Virus record (IMG/VR): IMGVR_UViG_3300042988_000112
Span: 1-41,610 of that record
Source: a virus
Length of the DNA: 41,610 nucleotides
Direction: 5' to 3' (one strand)
Positions 2,957 through 39,915 of this stretch are shown here, one piece after another. The notes under the pieces were generated by a model, which had not been told where the DNA came from, did no database searches, and saw nothing but the letters and a program-made list of their open reading frames with translations. A program made the position numbers and the translations under genes. Numbering within the stretch: the stretch's first letter is position 1; each line of letters begins with the position of its first letter.

Positions 2957-3008
2957 GGGTTTAGCCCCGCAGTATACGCTACGATATTGGCAAAGTCAAA
3001 AGTTCTGG

Positions 3009-16803: not shown

Positions 16804-17507
16804 GTTAGGTAATAGAGCTCTACACGTTTCATCCACTGTTGGCTCCAGTGGTCAAACTCGTCTCCTGAGACTTCAAATTCCAGGTATTCCGGCGTCGAAA
16901 AGGTGCCGTCTTCTAGCTGTTTTGGCTGTACAGCCATCAAAATTACACCATCACGTATATTGGTACCATATGTTTCATTATGTGCTGCTGCATATGCTGC
17001 TAACTGCAAAAAGTAGTCTTCAATCCACTCACGCTTTTTGACTTTGTTACTTTGCTTAAAGTCCATGATAGCAGGGCGGCCCTTCCACACACCTAAACAG
17101 TCTGTGGTGCCAGCATATAACCCACTATAATACACAGGAACTTCTGTGCCCCAGAATTCGTCTACATGGCAAAGTCCTTTAAGGATAACTTCTGCTGCCA
17201 TAAACCAACTTGGATGTGCAAATGGGTTCTCAGGCAATGGCTTCATATCATCTTGCAGAATATACTGTTCAAGGTATGCATGCATCCTGGTCCCACGATT
17301 TGCAGCTTCTGTGGTAATTTGCTGTGCTCGTTGTTCGCCTACACGCTTCTTCCAGTTGTTGAGAGCTTCGCGGGTTTCTTGTGGCTTTGTTTTATCGAGA
17401 ATAGTTGTAACGCTAGGAACTTTGCTACCATCTGGCAAACAATAATGTCTTTTGCCTTCTAATGTGGTTCTGCTAAGTGGTGAGTAATTGTAACGGGGAA
17501 TGATCAT
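16797..17507 (-). CDS. PD-(D/E)XK nuclease, RecB/Cas4/MGME1-like
   Basis: 236 residues from ATG 17507. The order SVTTILDKTKP, ANRGTRMHAYLEQYI (motif I His), GLYAGTTDCLGVWKGRPAIM and DFKQSNK (Asp, Lys of the catalytic core), then YFLQLAAYAAAHNET with the Gln/Tyr helix is that of RecB-family exonucleases found in many T4-like cyanophages. The likely substrate is single-stranded DNA ends, used in recombination or host DNA breakdown. A TATAAT box ends seven bases before the ATG. It is divergent from the SGNH gene at 17555, with 47 bases between them. Confidence 0.85.
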   Translation of the reverse strand: MIIPRYNYSPLSRTTLEGKRHYCLPDGSKVPSVTTILDKTKPQETREALNNWKKRVGEQRAQQITTEAANRGTRMHAYLEQYILQDDMKPLPENPFAHPSWFMAAEVILKGLCHVDEFWGTEVPVYYSGLYAGTTDCLGVWKGRPAIMDFKQSNKVKKREWIEDYFLQLAAYAAAHNETYGTNIRDGVILMAVQPKQLEDGTFSTPEYLEFEVSGDEFDHWSQQWMKRVELYYLTN

Positions 17508-18304: not shown

Positions 18305-19367
18305 TAACTTGCTCGATTTGTTTTGCTGGCCATTGCGTCCAGTCTCGAGTCATTAGTAAATTATAGTTGTGGTCTACAATAGGTTTAATCTTGCGGTAGA
18401 CTACGTCTTGTTCTTGCTCACACAAATACTTAACTTGGTCAAACGCCATTGCATATCGTTTGTTATCATCAATTTCTAAGTCATAGCTTTCATCAATGAT
18501 TCCATCAAATGTTTGGAATCCCAATGCACGTAGATTGTGCAAAAACTTGTACCCAGTAAACGCAATAAACAGTCGACGTGCAATCATTGGCTTGGCTGTT
18601 TTTTCTGTAAAGCAACTTAGGGTATTATCAAAGTCTGTTTCGGCAATGATAGTGTAGGCACTATCATTCATTACCTTGATAGGAATGATCTGACTTAGAT
18701 GTACACGTTGACCGCAATAGTCGGCCCAGTCAGCAGTGCCAATAGTTTGGCCAATTGGTGTAGTTCCTTCTTCCCAAATAAAGTAATCCTTGGCATAGAA
18801 CTCACCTTCTTTCCAATCGCCGCCATATGTCATAATAAACTTATGATTAAGATCGTTTGCGTTAACTGCATTAAACACAAAGTCTCTGTGTGGCTTTGGA
18901 CTACCTAGCAATGCATCAAAGTATTTGGGCTTGGTTGCATATGGGTTAATGTGTAGTACCTTATCCGGCAAGGCCTTGTAAATGTTGGCTGTGGTCTTAA
19001 ACCAATCGCCCCAACAAATAATGTGACTGTTAATATCATCACGATCATTTACTGCACCGGGTAATAACCAGTACACATTGTCGTGGTGACACTTTTCCCA
19101 AATTTGCCAATGGAAGTTATGGAGTTCACTTTCGAAAGTAAACACCAAGTCACTTATATAACTTAAACGGTTGATTTTATCTTCGAACCCAATGTACGCA
19201 GTGTCAAAATCACAGTGCAGTCGATGTGTAGTGAATGCAACCTTTAGCGTAGCTTCTGCTGCTTCAAACTCATCAATGCTGTGAGAAAGTGTGTAAGGGG
19301 TTTTAAAACTTATGTGGGGTAGCCACTCATTATCAATGATTTGGCTGTCGCTGTAAACTAATATCAT
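18285..19367 (-). CDS. Glycosyltransferase-like phage protein
   Basis: 360 residues from ATG 19367 (the frame can extend to TTG 19382). The segment LSCFTEKTAKPMIARRLFIA followed by GFQTFDGIIDESYD is a strong motif I know from phage and giant-virus proteins classed as exostosin-like or predicted glycosyltransferases. The N-terminal half (HNFHWQIWEKCHHDNVYWLL, CWGDWFKTT) may hold the donor-binding fold. If so, it would modify phage or host glycans, near the SGNH hydrolase. The start codon lies in a 14-bp inverted repeat, with a GATAAT box seven bases away, so leaderless transcription and its control are likely to be linked. Confidence 0.6.
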   Translation of the reverse strand: MILVYSDSQIIDNEWLPHISFKTPYTLSHSIDEFEAAEATLKVAFTTHRLHCDFDTAYIGFEDKINRLSYISDLVFTFESELHNFHWQIWEKCHHDNVYWLLPGAVNDRDDINSHIICWGDWFKTTANIYKALPDKVLHINPYATKPKYFDALLGSPKPHRDFVFNAVNANDLNHKFIMTYGGDWKEGEFYAKDYFIWEEGTTPIGQTIGTADWADYCGQRVHLSQIIPIKVMNDSAYTIIAETDFDNTLSCFTEKTAKPMIARRLFIAFTGYKFLHNLRALGFQTFDGIIDESYDLEIDDNKRYAMAFDQVKYLCEQEQDVVYRKIKPIVDHNYNLLMTRDWTQWPAKQIEQVINSLSV

Positions 19368-19399
19368 ACTTGTAATTATCAAAACTACAAGTATGATAT
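19361..19399 (-). promoter_or_regulatory. Perfect 14-bp inverted repeat around promoter and start codon
   Basis: Arms ATATCATACTTGTA (19361-19374) and TACAAGTATGATAT (19386-19399) are exact complements with an 11-base loop. On the minus strand a GATAAT box (19380-19375) ends the loop, then TACAAGT and ATG 19367, so the second arm holds the start codon. It also lies directly after the stop of the gene above (19403) and could act as an RNA-end hairpin. Confidence 0.7.
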
Positions 19400-19402
19400 A
19401 AT

Positions 19403-19846
19403 TTATCGTTTGCCGAGTGCTCTGCTAGCCATACCAGAAACAGTTTTTTCCGGTGCAGTTTGGCCAGCTTTAGTACCACCGTCGCCTTCACTTGAGAATG
19501 GATCATCGTCAAATGGAGTTAGGTAAACGTACTTAACAATTGAAGTGCCGCCAACGCTTGGGTCGTGTACTTCGTCGTCTTTAATGTCTGCAATTAAATT
19601 CTTAACAGCTTCGTTACTCTTGCGAGCGTTTTCCAATGCTTCTGCGTTAAACATTTCGCCACCTGGCAAACGCTTGATTAAGTTCACTAAAGCGTCAACA
19701 CGAACTCGCGGAACTGAGTGTCCGTGAGCTCTATTGCGTAGTTCTTCGAGGGCAGTTAAGAGGACACTGTCGCCGCGTGATTCGGCTTCGTCCTCAAGCA
19801 TTTCCCCGAGGCCACTGCTTTCTGTGACAAATTCGCTAAAACGCAT
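19403..19846 (-). CDS. Conserved phage protein, probably virion-linked
   Basis: 147 residues starting MRFSEFVTESSGLGEMLEDE, a type of start seen in T4-like cyanophage proteins of unknown role. It contains an amphipathic helix and acidic stretches (DIKDDEVHDP, FDDDPFSSEGDGG) and ends in basic residues. ATG 19846 overlaps the stop of the 235-residue gene by one base (TAATG). No enzymatic motif. A structural or scaffold role is a guess from the neighbours. Confidence 0.65.
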   Translation of the reverse strand: MRFSEFVTESSGLGEMLEDEAESRGDSVLLTALEELRNRAHGHSVPRVRVDALVNLIKRLPGGEMFNAEALENARKSNEAVKNLIADIKDDEVHDPSVGGTSIVKYVYLTPFDDDPFSSEGDGGTKAGQTAPEKTVSGMASRALGKR

Positions 19847-27317: not shown

Positions 27318-28382
27318 TTAACTATGTATGCGTTTACGCATTAACTCTATTTTTAAACGGCTCGATTCTTTGCCTTCTAAAATGGCTTTCATCGTAAATA
27401 ATTTGCCGTATTTTTGTACCGCTGCGGATACATCCTTACACTCATCTCTCCATACAGGAAAGCTAACACTCCACCCAAACTCTAAGGCTTGTTCAACTAG
27501 TCGCTCGCCTGCCCATACCATTCGTCCACGTACTTCTTTAAGGTCAAAGTCCGGAACTACAATAACTTCCCGCCCAAGACTGTCGATAATATCTGCTTGA
27601 ACCTCAGATACCTCGTTAGACAGCACAGCAACACCGTCAACTGCCATTGCATCAAACGGACCTTCAACTGCAAGAACAAACTTCCTATCAGGAGTCTGCA
27701 TATCCACATTAAAAACAAAATTAGGCTCGTAACTGTTATGATATTTAGGTTTGACTGATTCTGGGCTTTCCCAAGTTCTTGCTGTGTATCCAATTAAATC
27801 GCCTTTCCAGTAGCAGGGAATGATTACACGCTTGTGTAAGTTATATGCTGCATTTTCTGTAGTGTAGAATTCATACCGATTGTAATCAACCTTACGATCA
27901 TGAATGTAGTTAAATGCTTTTACAAACTGTGGATGCACAGGCTCGTCCTGATCCTGCAACATTAGAAAAGTTTTCCATTGTTGGAAACTAACTGCATCAT
28001 CGGGCAATGGGCGTGGCTTAAACGTAACCTCTTCGTCAGGTGCTTGTTTTATTTGTTCTGGACTGACTAGATCTTTAACACGGATCGCATCTATTACCAA
28101 ACGCTTGATGGAGTTTTCATCAGCTCCTAACCAACTCAGTAGCTTTCTAAACTTAAAGTTCAGATGACGTCCTGGTGTGTAGTTGGCTTTGAAGTTACAG
28201 TTGAAACAAGAGTATGATATGGATCCGTCGGCATTAGAGATTACGCCGCCACGCCCCCGATTGTCTCGGCTCTCACCGTTATGCTCGCAACACACAGCAT
28301 TAAACGAAGTCCAGCCATTAGAACTGGTCTTACGTTTAGAAGGTAGGTATTGTTTTACTGCGTCCTGTATTGTTGTTAGCAT
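27318..28382 (-). CDS. 61: DNA primase, T4 gp61 type
   Basis: 354 residues from ATG 28382 (a GTG three bases earlier is also in frame). Zinc-binding residues Cys31/32, His34 and Cys59, Cys62 (CCEH and CFNC) form the N-terminal ribbon. TOPRIM-type residues are EGPFDAM at 240-246 and VPDFD at 276-280. It makes RNA primers for lagging-strand synthesis with gp41, whose gene follows by two bases. The start codon is in the arm of a 12-bp inverted repeat with a TATAAT box six bases away, so it is expected to be leaderless. Confidence 0.9.
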   Translation of the reverse strand: MLTTIQDAVKQYLPSKRKTSSNGWTSFNAVCCEHNGESRDNRGRGGVISNADGSISYSCFNCNFKANYTPGRHLNFKFRKLLSWLGADENSIKRLVIDAIRVKDLVSPEQIKQAPDEEVTFKPRPLPDDAVSFQQWKTFLMLQDQDEPVHPQFVKAFNYIHDRKVDYNRYEFYTTENAAYNLHKRVIIPCYWKGDLIGYTARTWESPESVKPKYHNSYEPNFVFNVDMQTPDRKFVLAVEGPFDAMAVDGVAVLSNEVSEVQADIIDSLGREVIVVPDFDLKEVRGRMVWAGERLVEQALEFGWSVSFPVWRDECKDVSAAVQKYGKLFTMKAILEGKESSRLKIELMRKRIHS

Positions 28383-28409
28383 CACACAATTATATAGTGT
28401 GTGATGCTA
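28377..28409 (-). promoter_or_regulatory. Perfect 12-bp inverted repeat around TATAAT and start codon of primase
   Basis: Arms TAGCATCACACA (28377-28388) and TGTGTGATGCTA (28398-28409) flank a nine-base loop. On the minus strand the loop holds TATAAT (28394-28389), then TGTGTG and ATG 28382. The symmetry centred on the -10 box looks like an operator. Confidence 0.75.
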
Positions 28410-28421
28410 GAACTCAAACAT

Positions 28422-31409
28422 TTAGGGGTTTTCTATTGCCCAGATTCTGGCCGCAAGTTGATTCAACGCTGCTGCTACACTAGTAACTGGAGTTGTCCAG
28501 TGGCTGGCATTGGACATTGTGAACGAAATGTTTCCAGTTGCTGTTAAGTCAATGGTGCTAATGCTCGACGCACCACTAATCATTCCCGCAGGACTAGAAG
28601 TAAACTGCACATTGCCGCTTAGGAATATATTTCGATACGATGACGTCAATGTTCCGAGATCGAATGTTGCTGTTGCAGTAGGAGCGATATGTGTTCCAAC
28701 AATTAAGTTACCTGCGTCCCAACGGCCGATCTGATTTGCATCCTCGGCGCCGCCGGCATAGAAGTTAATGGACTTATCAATACTTGTGGCAGACAACAAT
28801 AAATTGCCACCATTGGTTAGTAAGTAGCCATCGTTGGGCTTAATTGCAGTATATCCTGGATAGTTATAGGTACTGCTAGCGATACCCATGTCAATAAAGT
28901 TTTGAGAGTCGTCACCGTTGTCTGCGGTTGCAACAAAGTCGGAACTAGCCAGTGGATCTGAGCTTAAGTTCTGCATGTTAATTTGAACATAAGATCCAAT
29001 ATTGCTTGTAAACTGAGCTAACACGTTCGGCAAGAACTGACCGCCTTCACCAACTTGGAAGCGAGTTCCAGGAAGACCACTTAAGTAAACGTTACCAGCA
29101 ACACCTAGGCCGCCGTTGGGAATAACCAATGCCCCACTGCTATGGTTAATGCTTGAAATAGATGCATTAGCCACTAGCTGTGAATCGGATTTAACAACTT
29201 GTGTAGGAACCTGCTCGTCGCCTAAAATAATTGGGTCTACTGCATTGATGCCAGTAACTCTTTGATCATTGACTGTTAAGTTGCCAAGAACCATTGGAGT
29301 AATGGTGGAGAAGATTGACACACCGTTTGCAAATTGGTATGCATAGCTCTTAACGGCTGTTGTTACTGTTAAAATGTTAGAAGTAATCAGGCCATTGAAA
29401 CTCTGTAAATAGTTGCTAACTGCTGTGTTGCCGTACGGAACATATCTAATTCCGTTACCCCAGAATATACCAGACCCGCTTGGTCCAGATAAAATAATAT
29501 TAGAAGTTGATAAATTACCAGTCAATGTAATATTGCTGGTAGTAGCCGAGACGATTGCAGAATTGGCAATAGCCATATTTGCTGCAAGCTCTGCTGGAGT
29601 AACAAACCCACTACCAACAATAATGCCGTTTACAGTAGTAGTTAACGTGCTTATATTGCTATTGATTAAATCAATTTGTGCAGACTGTGCGGCTGCGTTA
29701 GACGCTGTGTTTGCAGTTAGTCCCGATAGCCAGTCTGCTTGATATGCAGCATTGGCAGTAAGGACAGTTAATGCTGAGTTTTGTGTGGCAGCATTAGCAA
29801 ACAATGTAATAATATCTGCCGAGTTAGCCCCAACTGCGGACTGTAAGGCAGTAATGGCAGCGTTTGCAGCGGCAACGTTAGAGTTAATGGTAGTGAGTAT
29901 ACCTGCTTGAGTTGCTGCATTGCCAACCAATGTAGTTAGGCTATCGGCTTGCGTTGCTGCATTGGCAAGTAATCCATCTAAGTAATCACTTTGGCCTGCT
30001 GCATTAGCAGTCAATACGTTTAGGGCTGCGGTTTGCGTTGCCGCGTTTGCAGTTTGCACAGCCAAATTAGCAATAATTACGTCTAATGCACCGGATTGTG
30101 TTGCTGCGTTTGCAGTTAATGTCACTAATGTTGCTGCCTGCGTTGCGGCGTTTGCAGTTAATGTCACTAATGCATCACTTTGGATTCCGGCATTAGATGT
30201 TAATGATGTTAACCAATCAGCTTGGTATGCGGCGTTTGCAGTTAATGTGGTAATGTCATTGAGTGCTGCATCAAGGTCAGCAGCAAGTGCAGTCAATGAA
30301 GAAGACTGTGTGGCGGCGTTTGCAGTTAATACGTTTAGGGCTGCGGTTTGCGTTGCCGCGTTTGCAGTTAGAATGCTTAATTCGCCTGTTTGAGTTGCAG
30401 CGTTAGCATACAAGGCAACAATGTCACCAGCCTGAGCTGCTGCGTTTGCAAGCAATCCATTTAGGTAATCGTTTTGGCTAGCTGCGTTTGCATCTAATAG
30501 ATATAATAGCTGTGCCTGTGTTGCTGCGTTTGCAGTCAGTGTGCCAATTGCAGTATCATGGGTAGATAAGTGTCCGGTGATTGTTGAAACGTTTGTGTTT
30601 AAATCGCTACGCAATGATGTAATTGCACTATCTTGTACTGCGGCGTTAGATTGCAAGCTAACAATAGCAGCATCTTGGATAGCAGCGTTCGATGTTAGTC
30701 CAGCAAACCAATTAGCCTGTGTGGCGGCATTAGCAAACAACGTAGCAATGTCGCCTGTGTTAGTGTTTACGTTGGCAGTGATGCCATTGATTGCAGAGTT
30801 CTGGCTAACTGCATTAGCAAACAGCGTAACAATATCCGCGCCTTGTGAGCTAGTAACGCTCTGCAACGCTGCAATGTTTACGTTGGCTGCATTAATGTTT
30901 GCTCTTAGAGCATCAAGTTCGGCAGAATCAACACCAGATCCTAGTGCAGCAATAGCAGCATTGGCAGCAATAATATTGGCACGTAGCCCTGCAACGTTTG
31001 CGATCCATTGTGAATTAGTGGTGTCAATTTCGCCCTGTAATGTTACATCTGTGGCCTGCAATGCTGCAATAGCTGCCGCCTGAGCTGCTGCATTAGAAGT
31101 CAATGCTGTGATGTTGCCGCTTTGGGTAGCAGCATTAGAATACAATGTGGCAATGTTTGCGTTAATGGATGCAATGTTTGCATACACTGGAGTCAAATCC
31201 ACTGCTCCACTTACTGTGGCCACTGCGTTAGCCACAAATCCTTGTGTTGCCAAGAGTGTTCCGCCAGCGTTAATGCCGTCTTGTACTCGAAGGGTGTCTA
31301 AATCTGTATCAACAGTAACTTCCCCAATAGGGCCAGTGTAGGCACCCATGGTTGCTGTGTTTCCACGTTTTAATAATACTTGTCTGATAACTACGTTTGC
31401 TACTGTCAT
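28422..31409 (-). CDS. Long coiled-coil tail fibre
   Basis: 995 residues. The start (VVIRQVLLKRGNTATMGAYT, then GEVTVDTDLDTLRVQDG) is the particle-anchoring domain shared with other fibres here. Residues of about 75-570 form about 30 repeats of 14 residues built on L-T-A-N-A-A-T-Q and variants, two heptads each, which predict a long trimeric coiled coil. The C-terminal 350 residues are beta-rich and end NQLAARIWAIENP. The 42-base DNA repeats include exact copies (30013-30054 and 30328-30369), so recombination can change the rod length. It starts with a TAATG overlap after the baseplate-like gene. Confidence 0.85.
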   Translation of the reverse strand: MTVANVVIRQVLLKRGNTATMGAYTGPIGEVTVDTDLDTLRVQDGINAGGTLLATQGFVANAVATVSGAVDLTPVYANIASINANIATLYSNAATQSGNITALTSNAAAQAAAIAALQATDVTLQGEIDTTNSQWIANVAGLRANIIAANAAIAALGSGVDSAELDALRANINAANVNIAALQSVTSSQGADIVTLFANAVSQNSAINGITANVNTNTGDIATLFANAATQANWFAGLTSNAAIQDAAIVSLQSNAAVQDSAITSLRSDLNTNVSTITGHLSTHDTAIGTLTANAATQAQLLYLLDANAASQNDYLNGLLANAAAQAGDIVALYANAATQTGELSILTANAATQTAALNVLTANAATQSSSLTALAADLDAALNDITTLTANAAYQADWLTSLTSNAGIQSDALVTLTANAATQAATLVTLTANAATQSGALDVIIANLAVQTANAATQTAALNVLTANAAGQSDYLDGLLANAATQADSLTTLVGNAATQAGILTTINSNVAAANAAITALQSAVGANSADIITLFANAATQNSALTVLTANAAYQADWLSGLTANTASNAAAQSAQIDLINSNISTLTTTVNGIIVGSGFVTPAELAANMAIANSAIVSATTSNITLTGNLSTSNIILSGPSGSGIFWGNGIRYVPYGNTAVSNYLQSFNGLITSNILTVTTAVKSYAYQFANGVSIFSTITPMVLGNLTVNDQRVTGINAVDPIILGDEQVPTQVVKSDSQLVANASISSINHSSGALVIPNGGLGVAGNVYLSGLPGTRFQVGEGGQFLPNVLAQFTSNIGSYVQINMQNLSSDPLASSDFVATADNGDDSQNFIDMGIASSTYNYPGYTAIKPNDGYLLTNGGNLLLSATSIDKSINFYAGGAEDANQIGRWDAGNLIVGTHIAPTATATFDLGTLTSSYRNIFLSGNVQFTSSPAGMISGASSISTIDLTATGNISFTMSNASHWTTPVTSVAAALNQLAARIWAIENP
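29700..31180 (-). repeat. Degenerate 42-base repeat array within the fibre gene
   Basis: About 30 units of 42 bases encoding the 14-residue coiled-coil repeat. Most differ in sequence; at least one 42-base block is identical at two places and several 20-30 base blocks recur. Confidence 0.8.
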
Positions 31410-39520: not shown

Positions 39521-39915
39521 TACTTAATACCCAATGCAGCACGTTCAGCTGGCGTTAACTTTTCAAGAGCTCGTTCTTTTGTTTCTGCTGCGGCTTTCTC
39601 AGCTTGCAGTTTATCAAGCTCTTGTGTGATTACTGTGCTGCTGCGAAACACCGTAGACTTACCCGACTGCTCATTGTAGTTGCGAGTAGCTGTAGTGGTA
39701 TTGCCACACTTGGCAATATAGAAGCTCTTAGTTTGGTATCCGCGATCCACGTACTTGACTTCGCAGCCTTCGTACACACCAACAAAGTTAACAGCAGGGG
39801 TAGACAACAATGCTTTTGCCTCCTCATCTGTTCGCTGGCCGCAGCCGGTAAGCAACGCAGAACCTGCAACAAGTGCAGCACAAATTAACAAACCGTGTGT
39901 ATTAAGTGTTTTCAT
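39520..39915 (-). CDS. Lipoprotein
   Basis: 131 residues. A basic start and hydrophobic core (HGLLICAALVAGSALLTGC) end in the lipobox LTGC with Cys25. The mature part has two Cys (YEGCEVKYVDRGYQTKSF and AKCGNT) and a long charged C-terminal helix (ELDKLQAEKAAAETKERALE). In a Gram-negative host it would be lipid-anchored in the envelope. Phage lipoproteins often act in superinfection exclusion or lysis; which applies is unknown. TATAAT ends six bases before ATG 39915, a leaderless early-type promoter. Confidence 0.75.
   Translation of the reverse strand: MKTLNTHGLLICAALVAGSALLTGCGQRTDEEAKALLSTPAVNFVGVYEGCEVKYVDRGYQTKSFYIAKCGNTTTATRNYNEQSGKSTVFRSSTVITQELDKLQAEKAAAETKERALEKLTPAERAALGIK

Follow-up and report, generated by a model that had tools for sequence, protein, structure and literature searches.

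In bacteriophage T4, the genes e, soc, 49 and I-TevI are described as having their start hidden in longer transcripts, while late promoters located inside the 5′ strand of the structure give transcripts that are not hidden; hairpins of the same type are described for I-TevII, I-TevIII, segB and Aeh1 mobE (PMC3014915 and PMC2988022). The T4 genes controlled in this way are late genes, according to PMC2988022. Other arrangements that invite comparison are leaderless genes whose -10 element immediately precedes the start codon, and intrinsic terminators located over or before a downstream promoter.

The locus presented here is the start of a DNA primase gene in a viral sequence of 41,610 nucleotides (IMG/VR record IMGVR_UViG_3300042988_000112; the window, meaning the whole stretch analysed). 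Similar to T4 e, soc and I-TevI, the start region is hidden in read-through RNA from upstream, which at the primase is a computed property, and the promoter is located in the 5′ strand of the structure, which would be missing from the own transcript. However, the promoter of the T4 late genes is TATAAATA, whereas the primase locus has sigma70-type hexamers. The T4 structures hide the Shine-Dalgarno sequence and/or the AUG of late genes, whereas the primase locus possesses no Shine-Dalgarno sequence, has a leaderless geometry, and belongs to a replication gene that is essential and follows genes for virion proteins or cargo. In T4 the trick silences late genes in early RNA, which is opposite to the timing proposed for the primase. 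Judged from its sequence, the primase arrangement is different from the T4 kind in promoter type, in its predicted leaderless start, and in belonging to a replication gene.

With ordinary leaderless genes the primase shares the TATAAT 6 nt before the ATG and the lack of a Shine-Dalgarno sequence, but its promoter is wrapped in a hairpin that is expected to disable the same AUG in a longer RNA. Intrinsic terminators, such as those in Salicola phage SCTP-2 and before position 39915 of the window, likewise insulate a gene from upstream transcription; the primase hairpin, in contrast, lacks a U-run, and its target would be the start codon rather than transcription. In Salicola phage SCTP-2 (L269), a terminator-like stem carrying a T-run overlaps the region of the primase promoter (1458-1500), and an ATG at 1498 lies in frame, 96 nt before the annotated primase start. 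Upstream of position 39915 of the window (minus strand), a leaderless-type promoter with TATAAT 6 nt before the ATG of a gene is preceded by a terminator-like stem and a T-rich tract, which may shield that gene from transcription upstream by another route. A literature search, with subscription papers outside its scope, found no description of the promoter-in-hairpin arrangement.

The hairpin and the genes around it

The inverted repeat at positions 28377-28409 of the window is real, with two arms of 12 nt that are 100% complementary and separated by 9 nt, and the perfect palindromic arms and the TATAAT in the loop (28394-28389) reported in the preliminary description were confirmed. On the minus strand, which is the gene strand, the 5′ arm (TAGCATCACACA, 28398-28409) lies inside the promoter spacer, the 9-nt loop (28389-28397) carries the TATAAT at its end, and the 3′ arm (TGTGTGATGCTA, 28377-28388) contains the start codon. 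The ATG had been placed at the inner edge of this arm, but it occupies letters 7-9 of the 12 (28382-28380). RNA folding of the region returned the same hairpin as centroid. Two pairs of perfect arms of at least 12 nt with a loop of 3-12 nt are present in the window, compared with a mean of 0.04 in dinucleotide shuffles, and 6 of 200 shuffles had any such pair. Rfam gave no match at the gathering score for the hairpin; three matches were at chance level, far below their gathering scores.

The primase gene (27318-28382, minus strand) encodes 354 aa and matches phrog_47, DNA primase (E 3e-26); a single-sequence search of the protein against solved structures found nothing. Its start codon (28380-28382, minus), 6 nt past the TATAAT, is the expected transcription start and is conserved in the alignment of relatives. 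The gene had been described as a primase-helicase, of which the primase part holds, whereas the helicase is a separate DnaB-type replicative helicase gene directly downstream (27315-25873, minus; PF03796, E 2e-19). Upstream, on the same strand, lies a gene for a virion-protein-like product of 995 aa (28422-31409, minus; phrog_19577, minor head protein, E 6e-7), whose stop is located 39 nt before the primase ATG.

The proteins encoded directly upstream of the primase belong to 19 sequence families in 115 loci, several of them virion-like. Nine of these proteins were scanned in PHROGs and nine in Pfam, eight being common to both, and the matches include virion structural proteins, lectin-like domains, subtilase, pirin, fatty-acid desaturase and 2OG-Fe(II) oxygenase, as well as an outer-membrane barrel below the curated cut-off. 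The gene in this position appears to be exchanged freely. Since the families are so varied, the slot before the primase resembles a site of gene exchange, and transcription of whatever occupies it should not determine how much primase is made.

The embedded promoter and the predicted leaderless start

The -10 element TATAAT (28389-28394, minus) and the -35 element TTGAGT (28412-28417, minus), separated by a spacer of 17, have 10 of 12 matches to the sigma70 hexamers. The minus-strand layout is TTGAGT-N17-TATAAT-N6-ATG, with the 5′ arm of the hairpin within the spacer, and by consensus geometry RNA from this embedded promoter would exclude the 5′ arm. The own RNA is expected to start at the ATG, which would leave read-through RNA as the sole carrier of the complete hairpin. 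This expected RNA start was missed in the preliminary description, whose interpretation is supported in part.

Relatives of the primase were drawn from viral contigs, and three further scans provided an enlarged set. In the first set, 15 of 233 loci were left out for having no usable start, and 141 distinct starts were obtained. A -10 element was present 5-8 nt before the start codon in 139 of them; the other two are L005, which truly has none, and L058, where a short upstream flank led to a later start being picked. The gap between the -10 element and the ATG is 6 in 69 and 7 in 63 of the 139 relatives, and a -35 element with at least 4 of 6 matches at spacing 17 was found in 124. In the enlarged set 27 of 417 loci had no start, and 208 of 218 distinct starts passed the -10/-35 criterion, the remaining 10 being without promoter.

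SD-like motifs were detected before the primase start in 0 of 104 representatives of the enlarged set; in the window taken together with a 374-kb relative (L247-L265), 170 of 466 genes starting with ATG had one, with a motif list and span slightly different from those used for the primase. The primase start possesses both features of a leaderless gene: its -10 element precedes the start codon by about 6 nt, and a Shine-Dalgarno sequence is missing. Because of this absence its mRNA should be leaderless. Among the same 466 ATG starts, 18 have a promoter-like -10/-35 pair ending exactly 6 nt before the ATG, and each other distance in the range 0 to 29 is represented by 0-7 genes. Given this peak at 6, leaderless promoters seem to be common in this phage group. 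A giant-phage transcriptome study describes phage transcripts as often leaderless (PMC5312081).

Similar promoters were observed at other starts. The cultured but distant Pseudomonas phage vB_Pa-PAC2 (L267, 1463-1600) possesses TTGACA-N17-TATAAT-N6-GTG located in frame, 102 nt before the annotated primase start, and the start given in the deposited annotation probably lies 34 codons downstream of the real one. In the window, at 17507 (minus) and 17552 (plus), a leaderless-type promoter (TTGACT-N17-TATAAT) is found 7 nt before an ATG without a hairpin and with a divergent upstream neighbour, in line with the orientation rule seen at the primase (see below).

Paired changes in the arms and the orientation of the upstream gene

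For the covariation analysis, native arm pairs were compared with arms re-paired between relatives in 20,000 permutations. The first set was reduced to 70 representatives at less than 80% identity, and upstream orientation was taken from the longest upstream ORF and not from annotation. The context tests omit two of the 70, with short upstream sequence, leaving 56 with the upstream gene on the same strand and 12 divergent. Before clustering, 5 of the 139 relatives were left out of the upstream-context count for too little upstream sequence, and the counts include two '-open' calls (L031 and L080), the former perhaps miscalled. In the enlarged set 5 of 208 loci were short, and its 104 representatives comprise 79 same-strand, 21 divergent, and four in neither group, as their upstream frame is open to the ATG.

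The paired changes in the arms for which the preliminary description had suggested looking in relatives were found. Native arms in the 70 representatives pair at -10.27 kcal/mol, compared with -6.65 kcal/mol for re-paired arms (z -12.9, 0 of 20,000), and a duplex measure omitting the loop core gave z -11.4. Shared ancestry inflates z-scores of this permutation kind; a subset of 23 same-strand representatives below 65% identity, which reduces this inflation and does not remove it, still gave z -7.2 (0 of 20,000). The excess is confined to the spot: in a scan of the centre from -51 to +69 it lies within a few nucleotides of the -10 element (z -7.8 at -3 and -10.8 at +3), with a weaker z of -3.3 at +9, the next strongest value being -2.3 at -39. 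When the right arm was restricted to the ATG plus codons 2-6, z was -4.5 (1 of 20,000), and with codons 2-6 alone the result was less clear (z -2.2, 358 of 20,000). The promoter is kept in relatives, the changes in the arms spare its hexamers and the start codon, and arms of different sequence still pair.

A close comparison is provided by the window and its relative L002, in which the starts of the primase are 95% identical over 800 nt, while the upstream sequence is unrelated and the arms are different. The arms pair with their own partner at -20.1 (window) and -15.4 (L002), and with the arm of the other at -9.7 and -12.0, respectively. The other close pairs compared alongside presented little or no contrast of this type. 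A second strong hairpin in the window (19356-19404, minus) has arms of 22 nt that are 86% complementary, with the ATG at 19367 in the 3′ arm; the gene starting there encodes 360 aa of unknown family. This hairpin was kept in 5 of 17 relatives (L270-L274, 94-100% identical), with other sequence in the remaining 12, and being either near-identical or replaced it offers no covariation evidence.

Covariation at the primase depends on the orientation of the upstream gene. With a same-strand upstream gene, z was -11.9 in the 56 representatives and -13.1 in the 79 of the enlarged set (0 of 20,000), and 14 same-strand representatives from far clades gave z -4.5 (0 of 20,000). With a divergent upstream gene no excess was detected, either in the 12 representatives (z +0.1) or in the 21 of the enlarged set (z -0.3, 7597 of 20,000), in which the promoter is kept. 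Median folding energy was -9.5 in same-strand and -5.9 in divergent representatives (Mann-Whitney p 1e-4, uncorrected for relatedness). A folding energy of -8 kcal/mol was reached by 47 of the 79 same-strand representatives and missed by 32, so that about four in ten are weak, and it was reached by 2 of the 21 divergent ones; both counts speak against a switch. Orientation changed at most seven times on the tree, too few for independent pairs to reach significance; in the 70-representative set 2-4 of 4 pairs go in the expected direction and none in the opposite one, the enlarged set being weaker. The close relative L005, 74% identical, lacks both promoter and hairpin; there the frame upstream terminates in TAATG, which shares bases with the primase start (2990-3003) and suggests that its primase uses translational coupling instead.

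The computed cost of opening the AUG in the 56 same-strand representatives was 4.55 kcal/mol in read-through RNA and 0.88 kcal/mol in RNA started at the AUG, and the read-through cost exceeded 2 kcal/mol in 36 of the 56; in the 12 divergent representatives the corresponding costs were 1.48 and 0.86. In the window the cost was 10.0 kcal/mol in read-through RNA and 4.2 in the own RNA, where the AUG is still partly paired, which counts against the switch. Counts of G-U against A-C pairs in local alignments are contaminated by the self-complementary -10 core, and sense and antisense folding energies were used instead. The sense strand was modestly favoured (z -2.6, 99 of 20,000), with a second measure not significant (z -1.3, 2081 of 20,000), so that strand preference does not separate RNA from DNA here. 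We infer that the hairpin acts as RNA.

What the hairpin may do

The preliminary description had favoured an operator. In this reading a protein of phage or host origin would recognise the DNA dyad and shut down the promoter of the primase. The perfect dyad does span promoter and start, and with DNA parameters the covariation in the same 70 representatives is as strong as with RNA (z -13.4). Nonetheless, the half-site search of the whole record that it had suggested found a single occurrence, with no further exact copy in the 41,610 bases, and in close relatives the arms differ with pairing kept, whereas a protein recognising a fixed sequence would conserve the half-site. Divergent relatives, with the same promoter, have no excess of dyads. 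The operator was rejected, as its half-site is neither conserved in relatives nor repeated in the genome, and we consider binding of this kind very unlikely; the alternative of the same description, an RNA hairpin hiding the start codon, gains support from the paired changes. Initiation at a cruciform or single-strand hairpin would also place the function in the DNA, in the manner of the N4 virion RNA polymerase, whose promoters use a hairpin in initiation. The hairpin is centred on the -10 element and covariation by itself cannot separate RNA from DNA, but divergent relatives carry the same -10/-35 promoter with no excess of hairpins, as do other genes of a relative, and an ordinary sigma70 consensus needs no hairpin; this reading is highly improbable.

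The dependence on same-strand upstream genes, and the usual distance of about 40 nt between their stop codon and the ATG, would equally be expected from a device at the 3′ end of the upstream gene, a terminator or a protective stem-loop, that overlaps the primase start for lack of space. However, no U-run follows the hairpin, the T fraction from +10 to +24 being 0.25, so that an intrinsic terminator was rejected, and the hairpin is absent from the results of the terminator scan. The hairpin is moreover tied to the ATG and not to the stop, and L206 has a strong one even with 243 nt between the end of its last long same-strand ORF and the ATG. Such a device is unlikely, if less so than the readings above. 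Template switching, which perfects near-palindromes, would likewise give paired changes in both arms, without function; but neither the rest of the flanks nor divergent relatives show a comparable excess, and the changes respect the promoter hexamers and the start codon, so that we give this by-product of mutation very little credence.

Our preferred reading, which we regard as probable, is that the promoter within the hairpin works as a switch, tying primase expression to the gene's own promoter. It is based on the promoter geometry, the absence of a Shine-Dalgarno sequence, and the arm covariation confined to this spot and to same-strand neighbours. The sigma70-type promoter lies within the hairpin, its -10 element being placed in the loop and its spacer holding the 5′ arm. 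RNA from it would start at or next to the AUG without the 5′ arm, and its free 5′-terminal AUG would be translated as a leaderless message. Read-through RNA from a same-strand virion or cargo gene would carry both arms, fold and hide the AUG, and primase would not be made from it. The purpose would be to stop late or cargo transcription from yielding primase; without it, ribosomes that terminate some 40 nt ahead of the primase AUG might begin again there.

Chances are about even that the hairpin is a widespread insulator for a leaderless essential gene, which would let a slot for virion or cargo genes lie beside the replication operon, with primase made only from its own sigma70 promoter despite late read-through, a timing opposite to that of T4. 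A trick that a few late T4 genes and homing endonucleases are known to use would thus reach a replication gene with a leaderless message, within a large and mostly uncultured group of giant phages. The comparative support is strong, as the arms covary and do not when the neighbour is turned round, and the locus offers simple reporter tests of how ribosomes handle an internal AUG of the leaderless type. The arrangement suggests how such phages may swap genes beside an essential operon without disturbing it.
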